IMG/VR virus record: IMGVR_UViG_3300010396_000099
Span: 1 to 23,998 of that record
Reading direction: 5' to 3' (one strand)
DNA length: 23,998 nt
DNA from: a virus
Positions 16,790-21,937 of the stretch are shown one piece after another. A program made the position numbers and the translations under genes. Position 1 is the stretch's first letter; each line of letters starts with the position of its first letter. Under the pieces are notes generated by a model that ran no database searches, had not been told where the DNA came from, and saw only the letters and a list, made by a program, of their open reading frames with translations.

Positions 16790-17332
16790 TTAAATGTGTT
16801 TCCATGTTCTGCGATGCTGAATATCTCGGATTGTTGCATCTGATATTTTGTAAATGCGAGAAATTTCAAGAAAAGGGGTTTTTTCTTCTATCTTTGCTCG
16901 AATGCCAAAAACCTGATTGGCGGTAAGTTTTGCTGCTCTTGCTTTTTCGCCATTTAGTATGGTTCCATGTTTGAGCTTATCTGCATGGTTATTTGCCTTG
17001 GTATCCCAGCGCAGGTTTTCTAGGCGGTTGTTTCTTTTGTCGCCGTCGTTATGGCAAGCATCCATACAAGCTGGGCGCGGACCAACAAAGGCGAGCAATA
17101 CCATTTGATGCAAATATCCCTTTTTGCACTTTCCATCTTTCCACAGATTTACGCCCCAATAGCCCTTGCCCACCACTCCCGGAGAGATAGCGCGTCCGTG
17201 GACAGTTTGACGTTTCAGGCCAAAAGAAACACGATCTAGAGAGCGTATGTTTCCCCAATTGCTGATTTCATAGATTCCCTCGTAACCAACAATCGGCAAC
17301 CATTTTTCATTGCTTACATTTTCGTTATTCAT
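16790..17332 (-). CDS. NUMOD4-HNH homing endonuclease
   Basis: This 180-residue protein starts at ATG 17332, overlapping the stop of the 69-residue gene, with GAGGT upstream. Residues about 10-35 are NUMOD4 (EKWLPIVGYEGIYEISNWG, then IRSLDR). The HNH core follows at about 73-108 (LHQMVLLAFVGP, DACHNDGDKRNNRLENLRWDTK). The C-terminus is a HTH-like DNA-binding region (KLTANQVFGIRAKI...DATIRDIQHRRTW). It would cut a phage allele lacking it and spread by repair. It sits immediately upstream of recT without an intron and its stop overlaps the recT ribosome site. Confidence 0.92.
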   Translation of the reverse strand: MNNENVSNEKWLPIVGYEGIYEISNWGNIRSLDRVSFGLKRQTVHGRAISPGVVGKGYWGVNLWKDGKCKKGYLHQMVLLAFVGPRPACMDACHNDGDKRNNRLENLRWDTKANNHADKLKHGTILNGEKARAAKLTANQVFGIRAKIEEKTPFLEISRIYKISDATIRDIQHRRTWKHI

Positions 17333-17541
17333 CACCGCACCTCACAAGACCCAATAGGCTCGCCGCAATACCTCTGCGCAACAGGAATAACAACCATCAG
17401 CAGAACCACCAGGACAGCCCACAGGATGTAAACTGGCTTGGGGCTAGGCTCTGTCGGTATGCGCTGCCAGTGCAGAATAGGCTTCGACTTGGAGCGGTCA
17501 GCGCGGCGCATGGCGGACTTTATTGTTTGTTTGGCGTTCAT
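17332..17541 (-). CDS. Small single-pass membrane protein
   Basis: This 69-residue protein has a basic N-terminus (NAKQTIKSAMRRADRSKSK), one strong hydrophobic helix (about residues 38-55, YILWAVLVVLLMVVIPVA) and a short Cys-containing end. ATG 17541 follows the same GGAACCCATCATG leader as the gene starting at 11473. Function unknown. Confidence 0.75.
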   Translation of the reverse strand: MNAKQTIKSAMRRADRSKSKPILHWQRIPTEPSPKPVYILWAVLVVLLMVVIPVAQRYCGEPIGSCEVR

Positions 17542-19096: not shown

Positions 19097-19229
19097 GCGG
19101 CATCCCTCCAAAAACAGCCTCAAGCACCAGCACGCCGAGAATCACAGCAACGACGATGACAGACCATATTGCTTCCGCTCTCATTCTGCGGTGCCGGCTC
19201 TCCATCCAGGCCTCGTTGTCGCGGTTCAT
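19089..19229 (-). CDS. 46-residue membrane protein
   Basis: ATG 19229 overlaps the TGA of the gene above (ATGA). The product has a charged N-terminal third (NRDNEAWMESRHRRMRAEA) and one hydrophobic helix (WSVIVVAVILGVLVLEAVFGG). The layout of a basic start then a single membrane span resembles many short phage membrane proteins. Coupling and composition support it as genuine. Confidence 0.65.
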   Translation of the reverse strand: MNRDNEAWMESRHRRMRAEAIWSVIVVAVILGVLVLEAVFGGMPRV

Positions 19230-19525
19230 GATTTCACGCACTCAAGGAGCCAATCAACCGATTCCCGATCCATGCCGGGCATTACCGGCAATACGGTATC
19301 TTCTGGGACGGCATCAATCCACTCAAGCGCAGCACAAAGAGCTTCTACGAGCGCCTCATGGTTGTTGACGGCCTTGACGATGAGGGCGGCGTTAGCCTTT
19401 GCGGTTTCGTGCCCAGCAATGCCAACTCCATTAACCTGAACGGTTTCCAGACAATCGCCGCCACGCGCCCCATGCGCAACCATGTCTCCGTACTTATCGA
19501 AACTCCACGGCAATTTCGTATGCAT
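19226..19525 (-). CDS. HTKLPW-family phage protein
   Basis: This 99-residue protein starts at ATG 19525, three bases after a strong TAGGAGGG ribosome site. It opens with HTKLPWSFDKYG and has KANAALIVKAVNNHEALVEALCAALEW, the signature of a very common phage early family (HTPxPW at the start; AxANAxxIVxAxNxHExLxxAL later). A second member is at 21304-21603. Function unknown. It is the first gene after the 1.4-kb structured region and its ribosome site lies at the end of that RNA. Confidence 0.85.
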   Translation of the reverse strand: MHTKLPWSFDKYGDMVAHGARGGDCLETVQVNGVGIAGHETAKANAALIVKAVNNHEALVEALCAALEWIDAVPEDTVLPVMPGMDRESVDWLLECVKS

Positions 19526-20078
19526 ATTCCCTCCTAGTTGAATTCATGCCGGTTACCTTCGTCCGGCGATCCCCCTCGCAAGAGGGAACGGGTGGGCTTC
19601 GTCGATTACCATCTCGCCCAGCGGTCAAATTCGGACTAAACAGCGCGCCGGGTCGCCGTTGATATAGCCCTGCGGTCTGGTGGCCGCATCGCCTTGAGCA
19701 AACTTCGGTCTTGGCGCGTAGTTTTTATGCCGGGCACGTCTCCGGCGCGGGCTTCCGCCGCCGTGATGCCATCCATAGTCCGGTTACACACATTTGACGA
19801 GCAACTACCGGCAAGAGTCTCGTGTTGGTGGCTGGCGCTGAACTCCGGCATATTCCAGTTCTAGATACGTCAGCTCGAACAAGCGCCCGGGATAACTATC
19901 GCTCTTGCATCAGCCTGCACATTCACCAACAAAGCAAACGTCTGGACGCGACTTCCAGATATCTACCGGGGCGATATCGACTCCCGGCGTCTTGGCCCGC
20001 GCATACGCGCTATTCTTGTTCGGGTTGCAGCCTGCGCTTACAGGCTTCATTTGCTTTCTTGGTGCTGCTTTCCAACAA

Positions 20079-20158
20079 AGTAGGGTGCTGGACTCGAACC
20101 AGCATCTCTCAGAGGGGGATAATCCGGCTAAGGCTCTATCCAATTGGGCTACCCCTAC
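20079..20158 (-). tRNA. tRNA-like sequence, degenerate or tRNA-derived
   Basis: Minus-strand features: acceptor GTAGGGG/ACCCTAC with one mismatch; TA at positions 8-9; a D-arm AATTGGATAGAGC with one mismatch in its stem; a perfect T-arm GCTGG-TTCGAGT-CCAGC. The 29 bases between the D- and T-arms contain a possible CTC/GAG variable-arm hairpin but no good anticodon stem, so I assign no amino acid. No CCA is encoded, and the acceptor helix continues outward as a 14-bp perfect helix (20072-20085/20153-20166). It is probably a tRNA-derived domain of the larger RNA; a real tRNA cannot be excluded. Confidence 0.5.
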
Positions 20159-20167
20159 TTTGTTGGC

Positions 20168-20188
20168 CCTCGCACTAACGCGGCGAGG
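20168..20188 (-). repeat. RNA module 1: hairpin plus GAGGGCCAACA
   Basis: Six-base-pair hairpin CCTCGC/GCGAGG with a nine-base loop containing GTTAG, running into GAGGGCCAACA and the tRNA-capped helix on the minus strand. The 12-base string TGTTGGCCCTCG on the plus strand is at 20161-20172. Confidence 0.7.
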
Positions 20189-20368
20189 TTTAACGTGTTG
20201 TGGCGGCTCGATTAACTGCCGCGCTCTATATTTCGCTACACTGACGCACCCACTTCCTCGCAGCACTCACGTCTTCGAGACGATGTTTCACCAACATTAA
20301 ATTGTTTTCAGCGTCGGGACTACAACCACCCGATATTTAGCTCGCGCCGAAAACAATTCAATGTTGGC

Positions 20369-20388
20369 CCTCGTCTATCGTGCGAAGG
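20369..20388 (-). repeat. RNA module 2: hairpin plus GAGGGCCAACA
   Basis: Hairpin CCT(T)CG/CGAGG with a bulged T and a nine-base loop containing GATAG, followed on the minus strand by GAGGGCCAACA and a 19-bp helix (one G-U) closed by 20291-20309. Plus-strand string TGTTGGCCCTCG at 20362-20373. Confidence 0.7.
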
Positions 20389-20647
20389 CCACTTCTAACG
20401 TGCTGCCTCTTTCTTCGGCTAGTTTCGGCGGCAAGCGTGGCCTACGCTCCCGGAACGGCATGGCCTTAGATCATCAACAAGGAAACGGGCTACTATCAGG
20501 GAGCCTTCGAATCAGGCCTATGCACAACCGCTATCCCCCATTGGCACCTGAAATACAACTGAATCAGATGACATTCCCGGACAGAAGGCATTACGTGGGT
20601 CCCTGAAAACAAACTCAGCTATGACGGGAGTAACCCGCTTCCTTGTT

Positions 20648-20678
20648 GGCCCTCGCGCCTATCATTTGCGCAAGGGCC
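20648..20678 (-). repeat. RNA module 3: 11-bp hairpin plus GAGGGCCAACA
   Basis: GGCCCTTGCGC pairs with GCGCGAGGGCC (one U-G on the minus strand) around a nine-base loop containing GATAG. The 3' arm overlaps GAGGGCCAACA and then the helix closed by 20474-20489. Plus-strand string TGTTGGCCCTCG at 20644-20655. Confidence 0.7.
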
Positions 20679-20923
20679 GGTTTGCAAGTTTTTTTGAATT
20701 CTTAATCCTCAAGTATTTCGGCTTAGCCGTCGCGCCTACTACCCGTGCCAGACAGTAGGCGCACCATCTGCTTAGATCGCTTGTTCTGCCGGCAGGCGAT
20801 GGCCGCAAAGTCACCCCTGCGCGTATTGTCTGGATTAGCGCCTCCTTGACCCTTGGCACAGGGAATTGGTCCTATCCAATAGAGGCAATGCCAGACTGAG
20901 AAAAGAATCATGTGTTGCAGTCC

Positions 20924-21303: not shown

Positions 21304-21603
21304 TTAGGCGCAAGCCTTGGCCAAAGCAGCTTTGCATTCTTCGTATTCCGCCAGATGGCTAGCCTCCCATTTGCCAGCGGCGCAGACGTGTTCGTAAATA
21401 CGAATGGCCTTTTCTAGCGCGGCAGTCAAATCCTCATGGCAATTTGCCGCTAGGACGATGAACTTGGCATTGGCCTTTCTCTCGGCGTGACTGCCAAATG
21501 TCATTTCGCAGATAGGCGCGCAACCCCGCTTTTCTCCGTCGCTGTCGCAGATTTGCAATTGGTCAAATTGATTAATCTGCCAAGGCAATTTTGTGTGGCT
21601 CAT
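21304..21603 (-). CDS. HTKLPW-family phage protein, second copy
   Basis: This 99-residue protein starts at ATG 21603, six bases after GGAG. SHTKLPWQINQFDQLQ begins it and ERKANAKFIVLAANCHEDLTAALEKAI carries the family signature shared with 19226-19525. The C-terminal third (YEHVCAAGKWEASHLAEYEECKAALAKA) is unique to this copy. Cys in CDSDGEKRGCAPIC could be structural. Function unknown. Confidence 0.83.
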   Translation of the reverse strand: MSHTKLPWQINQFDQLQICDSDGEKRGCAPICEMTFGSHAERKANAKFIVLAANCHEDLTAALEKAIRIYEHVCAAGKWEASHLAEYEECKAALAKACA

Positions 21604-21625
21604 CTCGCTCTCCAAACTCAATAAA

Positions 21626-21937
21626 TCAAACCCGTTCCCGAGCAACCTTCAGCATCAGCAGGCGAACGTACTTGCCCACGTCTGCATCGCTGAATTCGGG
21701 TGCCATTGCGCGAAACATCAACACGTTGTCATCGGCGGCATCGAATTGCGCTTCGACAAACGCGGTGCTGATGTCCTGCGAGGCGCGCTTGTCAGATTCG
21801 ATCTGGTCATGCAGGGCGGACATCAAGTCGAAGAATCCTTGCGTCTTCGGCTCTGCAAACTCGGCCGGTGCCATGCGGTCATACTGGCGCTGCGCTCTGG
21901 CAAATGTGTCGGCGATGGCTTGGTTTGCGATGTCCAT
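21626..21937 (-). CDS. First gene of the PL operon, hypothetical
   Basis: This 103-residue helical protein starts at ATG 21937, six bases after GGGAG, about 30 bases downstream of the expected PL start. MDIANQAIADTFARAQRQYDRM, then SALHDQIESDKRASQDIS and VGKYVRLLMLKVARERV. It holds the place of lambda N, but it lacks an arginine-rich N-terminus, so it is not an N-type antiterminator by sequence. Family not recognised. Confidence 0.78.
   Translation of the reverse strand: MDIANQAIADTFARAQRQYDRMAPAEFAEPKTQGFFDLMSALHDQIESDKRASQDISTAFVEAQFDAADDNVLMFRAMAPEFSDADVGKYVRLLMLKVARERV

Follow-up and report, generated by a model that had tools for sequence, protein, structure and literature searches.

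A Conserved, Mosaic Family of Structured Phage RNAs with a Two-Hairpin Domain Found in P1 and HK620

Introduction

A 12-base string that recurs in a viral genome, each time beside a hairpin and a long helix, raises the question of whether the DNA around the copies specifies a structured RNA, and of what such an RNA would do. We addressed this question for the window, by which we mean the whole analysed stretch of 23,998 nucleotides (positions 1 to 23,998 of IMG/VR record IMGVR_UViG_3300010396_000099). The record encodes an integrase, RecT and an HNH endonuclease, and its genes are mainly on the minus strand. A NUMOD4/HNH homing-type endonuclease gene (16790-17335, minus strand) is located directly upstream of recT. 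The genes that flank the RNA on both sides (19226-19525 and 21304-21645, minus strand) match phrog_1273, a family of unknown function.

Results

The string TGTTGGCCCTCG is present at 20161-20172, 20362-20373 and 20644-20655, in exactly three copies, and is absent from the rest of the 23,998-base record, in which about 0.003 copies of any one 12-mer would be expected by chance. On the minus strand, to which all features of the RNA region described below belong, a GWTAG hairpin with a nine-base loop ends in each of the three 12-mers, and a long helix comes next, as a sequence-only reading of the window had claimed; its length is 14 bp in module 1, 24 bp in module 2 and 19 bp in module 3. The fourth helix, which that reading had considered possible, was found at its predicted place (16 bp, 20064-20048/19940-19924). 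The same reading had the 12-mer itself opening the long helix. In modules 2 and 3, however, the bases GAGGGCC form the 3' strand of the hairpin, and the opening of the long helix is thus at (CC)AACA.

The three hairpins differ in length: hairpin 3 (20648-20678) has 11 bp and the loop AAATGATAG, hairpin 2 (about 20390-20366) has 8 bp (CACGATAGA), and hairpin 1 (20188-20168) has 6 bp (CGCGTTAGT). The arms that follow them differ as well. Arm 3 (20476-20647) consists of a 19-bp helix (20647-20629/20494-20476) with inner branches, and arm 2 (20290-20368) of a 24-bp helix (20368-20345/20313-20290), while arm 1 (20072-20166) has a 14-bp helix (20166-20153/20085-20072) and a degenerate tRNA within it. 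Arm 4 (19924-20064) is built on the 16-bp helix CACCAAGAAAGCAAATG / CGTTTGCTTTGTTGGTG, whose 3' strand is common to the related records L078 and L020. In a closer scan of the region, the sequence at 20158-20079 in arm 1 matched the tRNA model RF00005 at 31.6 bits (gathering score 29, E 2.7e-4); ARAGORN did not call a tRNA there, and thus we judged this tRNA to be degenerate. Neither this tRNA-like sequence inside helix 1 nor the domain downstream of helix 4 that we describe below had been recognized in the sequence-only reading.

The RNA region as a whole (19729-20690) is roughly 1 kilobase long, with its 5' end at about 20690 and conserved pieces extending to about 19729. Its minus strand folded at -448.7, as compared with -412.7 in 30 dinucleotide shuffles (z = -3.4), and with -428.8 for the plus strand. 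None of eight ORFs in or around the region (two of them flanking) had a credible Pfam match, the one match obtained being spurious (E 0.02), and a whole-window Rfam scan gave no family at its gathering score. A weak match to flavivirus xrRNA in the region scan was taken as chance. At the 3' side, the module CGAGACTCTTGCCGGTAGTTGCTCGTCAAATGTGTGTAACCGG (19778-19823), which is 96% identical to L078 over 54 nt, is a possible H-type pseudoknot, as read off the sequence alone. It is followed by the module GCGGAAGCCCGCGCCGGAGACGTGCCCGGC (19729-19758), which, when compared by eye, has a near-identical counterpart of about 30 bases in P1, immediately before the tRNA-Asn gene (window 19758-19729 and about 1736-1765 in L366, the P1 record).

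Its relatives support the reading of the region as a structured RNA in which the junctions are conserved and the helices can change. A first IMG/VR pattern matched 73 stretches, mostly by chance or in coding DNA, and when only those with a paired hairpin were kept, the hairpin and junction were found in L078/L024, L054, L062/L013 and L020. The same hairpin and junction were found in L129/L130 by another pattern. In L078, L054, L062, L129 and L020 the helices are different, and the loops and junction are thus kept in phages other than that of the window. The hairpin 1 module (20154-20200, CGTTAAACCTCGCCGCGTTAGTGCGAGGGCCAACA) is 93.6% identical to L078 over 47 nt and occurs also in L054, L062 and L129. 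The linker D around hairpin 2 (20362-20480, GCACGTTAGAAGTGGCC..GATAG..GAGGGCCAACA) is 86.7% identical to L020 across 120 nt, after which L020 has another arm. Conversely, the arm AGGAAAGAGGGGG lies between different junctions in L020, L054 and Aeromonas phage ST4, and an arm resembling arm 4 is present in L020 and L078. Among the relatives, a given junction is thus met with different arms, and a given arm between different junctions, and a word scan of the module order in each genome revealed a mosaic. Among related phages reached via RecT neighbours, the RNA was found in L078 only. The matches of L209 to E. coli and Stx phages represent the promoter and immunity region of L209, and not the RNA. 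In L132 (at about 2550), L167 and L192, a hairpin GACAGC..GGARAGAC..GC replaces the GWTAG hairpin before an arm.

Helix 4 leads into a further domain, domain C (19931-19823), in which two hairpins with complementary loops surround a variable insert within a closing stem (TGTTGGTG, 19931-19924, and CACCAACA, 19830-19823). Hairpin a (19920-19905) has the loop GGCTGA, and hairpin b (19849-19831) has the loop AGTTCAGCG and, in the window copy, one A-C mismatch. The use of the sequence after helix 4, TTGGTGAATGTGCAGGCTGATGC, as a query retrieved 99 IMG/VR stretches with a common frame: outer stem, hairpin a with GGCUGA, insert, hairpin b with UCAGC, and outer stem. At least 120 stretches were matched by a second pattern, in which the stem of hairpin a was left open. 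Domain C has no matching Rfam family.

To compare pairing in domain C with that in column shuffles, which leave sequence relatedness in, we used 83 non-redundant sequences. Hairpin a, which was not selected for pairing, was paired in 99% of cells (93.9% in shuffled columns), hairpin b, which was picked by pairing, in 100% (91.8%), and the outer stem, picked partly so, in 92.8% (79.2%). No shuffle reached the observed pairing of any of the three. Double-sided changes were seen in 18, 26 and 88 cells of hairpin a, hairpin b and the outer stem, respectively, and the stems contain G-U pairs, as those of an RNA should. Compensatory base changes far beyond those in column shuffles are clearly indicated by this alignment. 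The complementarity of loops a and b is compatible with a kissing contact between them. As it is near invariant among the 83 sequences, the kissing pairs hardly vary, and covariation speaks neither for nor against such a contact.

The inserts vary within this fixed frame: clustering of 138 inserts gave 108 clusters, of which 87 held a single insert, and the inserts folded only slightly better than their shuffles (mean z -0.47). The surroundings of domain C are strongly enriched in T-arm remnants of tRNAs. T-arm hairpins outside called tRNAs were found near 30 of 173 domains, whereas shuffles gave 1.4 and the control windows 4 of 206, and tRNA genes were found near 16 of the 173 copies, versus none of the 206 control windows. 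Moreover, TGTTGGTG of the window can pair in two ways, with the upstream CACCAAG (helix 4) or with the downstream CACCAACA. An upstream stem of at least 14 bp that uses the TGTTGGTG strand is present in 24 of 176 loci (1.6 expected), and one of at least 16 bp in 17 of 176 (0.2 expected). For the majority of loci, the length of the upstream stem does not exceed that expected by chance, and therefore upstream pairing is a property of a subset, in which the alternative pairing suggests a strand switch at TGTTGGTG.

With a 32-base query, domain C was detected in no fewer than 171 phage records, among them records of Klebsiella, Pseudomonas, Escherichia and other phages and those of P1, HK620, PY54 and IME11. 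P1 has two copies, adjoining the tRNA-Asn and tRNA-Thr genes. The HK620 copy is located in the pR' late leader, where qut lies on one side of it and tQ, the annotated late terminator, on the other, that of YA3 between Q and the holin gene, that of PY54 directly before the holin gene, and that of IME11 inside a 2.1-kb gap without annotation. Domain C was also read in its context in ep3 and Magnus; in ep3 it is followed by a terminator and a convergent gene. In Proteus phage Brookers it follows a LexA-like repressor gene. Single-domain versions of the RNA, of about 200 nt, exist as well. A 330-base P1 query (domain C with flanks) had partial matches in 1331 of 5426 complete E. coli genomes, with the matched part varying between genomes, and the exact domain C motif was found in eleven bacterial-genome stretches. 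Domain C is absent from the E. coli K-12 prophage CPS-53 upstream of yfdP, and none was seen in the P22 gene 23-13 gap, for which an RNA-seq paper reported the leader RNA P22E.

Two side observations were made in records that carry domain C. In L148, a hairpin just downstream of it (1269-1305), followed by a T-run, matches abiF RNA (RF03085, 55 bits). A module similar to the mRNA-like segment of tmRNA is present in P1 (L366 1313-1400), HK620 (L365 1736), IME11 (L249 2258) and Magnus (L250 2213); in IME11 it reads GCA AAC GAT GAT GTT GTT CTG ATG GCG GCG TAA (ANDDVVLMAA), and the tmRNA matches of P1 and HK620 are weak.

Discussion

There is good support for the existence of a phage RNA family that is conserved, structured and mosaic: comparison between genomes demonstrates, at the level of sequence, its modules, their varying orders and the compensatory changes in domain C. 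As to its function, we tentatively favour, at somewhat below even chances, a phage non-coding RNA of interchangeable modules that serves as a trans-acting scaffold displaying variable, often tRNA-derived arms. The RNA would be transcribed on the phage minus strand, and its conserved junction domains would be joined by long helical arms, the contents of which, often tRNA-derived, would be exchanged between phages. The loops GCUGA and UCAGC would make a kissing contact. TGTTGGTG would pair upstream first (CACCAA.., the arm helix), and then be captured by the downstream CACCAACA, closing domain C. The finished RNA would act in trans as a stable scaffold, and the displayed arms would base-pair with host RNAs, including tRNAs, or imitate them in the infected cell. 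Against such a scaffold speak the inserts, which fold only slightly better than shuffles, and the failure to find a sigma-70 consensus promoter near the window RNA; moreover, the copies of domain C at operon starts (HK620, YA3, the Proteus phage) would fit a role in cis as well. A more specific function, which we regard as improbable, is that of a platform that takes up fragments of tRNAs and other sequences as exchangeable arms, to act as decoys for tRNA-cutting or tRNA-modifying anti-phage defence enzymes, with the strand switch setting the platform during transcription.

The trans-acting scaffold has two serious rivals, namely RNA-only assembly and a leader that acts in cis. The conserved loops might drive the formation of homo-oligomers or of a cage with the variable inserts inside, as in GOLLD and ROOL, to our knowledge the two self-assembling phage RNA families known. 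With GOLLD and ROOL (PMC12286853) the RNA shares its large size, its phage origin, its proximity to tRNA genes and a conserved frame that encloses a variable stretch, and complementary loops are present in it. However, no similarity to these families in sequence or covariance model was found, both loops could satisfy each other within a single molecule, and the single-domain versions are of about 200 nt, which makes such an assembly unlikely in our judgement. We give a similarly small chance to domain C as an antitermination, stability or translation element of its own transcript, like the put RNAs of HK022. That would explain its position between qut and tQ in HK620, directly before the holin gene in YA3 and PY54, and after the repressor gene in Brookers, but it fits poorly with ep3, where a terminator and a convergent gene come next, and with the copies located among tRNA genes. 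Nor would one expect a compact cis element to come with hypervariable inserts and with unannotated sequence that extends to as much as 2 kb.

We consider it very improbable that the modules are cassettes swapped at the DNA level by a recombinase acting at CCAACA/TGTTGG ends, as at integron attC sites. The breaks in the mosaic do lie near such ends, but GGCCAAC and GTTGGYR do not fit, by eye, the attC consensus ends RYYYAAC/GTTRRRY, for which reason we rejected an attC identity; moreover, G-U pairs are common in the stems, and mosaics arise by ordinary recombination too. Hardly any credence can be given to functionless, decaying tRNA genes shuffled by recombination. They would account for the T-arm remnants and tRNA genes enriched nearby, but conserved stems with compensatory changes across widely different phages, and an identical module order in unrelated phages, need selection.

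We found no description of the RNA family in Rfam 15 or in open papers, subscription journals being outside the search; the paper on svsR treats another RNA. Phages as intensively studied as P1 and HK620 carry a structured RNA domain that has neither an Rfam family nor an annotation of its own in these or the other phage records examined. A conserved frame that combines near-unique inserts with arms derived from tRNAs suggests a device of general use to phages, which can be tested at once, as laboratory phages carry domain C.

Comparison with Known RNA Families

When the window and nine relatives were searched with the GOLLD covariance model (RF02032), nothing matched at E 10, and Rfam scans at the gathering score gave no GOLLD match either. 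The ROOL model (RF03087) gave no match at E 10 in the ten records, a negative result that is weaker since the control genomes likewise gave none. The window RNA is like GOLLD in being a giant phage RNA close to tRNA genes, with a conserved frame around a variable region, and like ROOL in being a large phage RNA with a variable linker. It differs from GOLLD, which has one architecture, in being a mosaic of short modules. Like tRNA (RF00005), arm 1 matches the cloverleaf model above the gathering score, but its acceptor helix continues into the module helix.

The closest parallel is with STnc100 and PasD (RF02076), reported to be related prophage sRNAs (PMC13192938); according to the same paper, the Pas sRNAs ranked with the most abundant sRNAs recovered by Hfq RIL-seq. 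Apart from a prophage origin, the likeness is one of plan only: TGGTGAAT, a hairpin, a variable stretch, a second hairpin and a CACCA closing stem. STnc100 has the loops AGGCA in place of TCAGC, and its first hairpin is also different. A search of the window with its model yielded nothing at E 10, but matches were obtained inside or close to the same RNA in P1, ST4 and Magnus, with a weaker one in IME11. The match was above the cut-off in one relative, Klebsiella phage Magnus, and sub-threshold in P1 (33.9 bits; L366 2695-2815, OP279344 66326-66446). As the STnc100 consensus combines this plan with different loops, we read it, judging from the layout, as a probable sister of domain C that is present in the same RNAs of P1, ST4, Magnus and perhaps IME11, and as the nearest known RNA. 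The known STnc100 and PasD sRNAs may then join a larger family.
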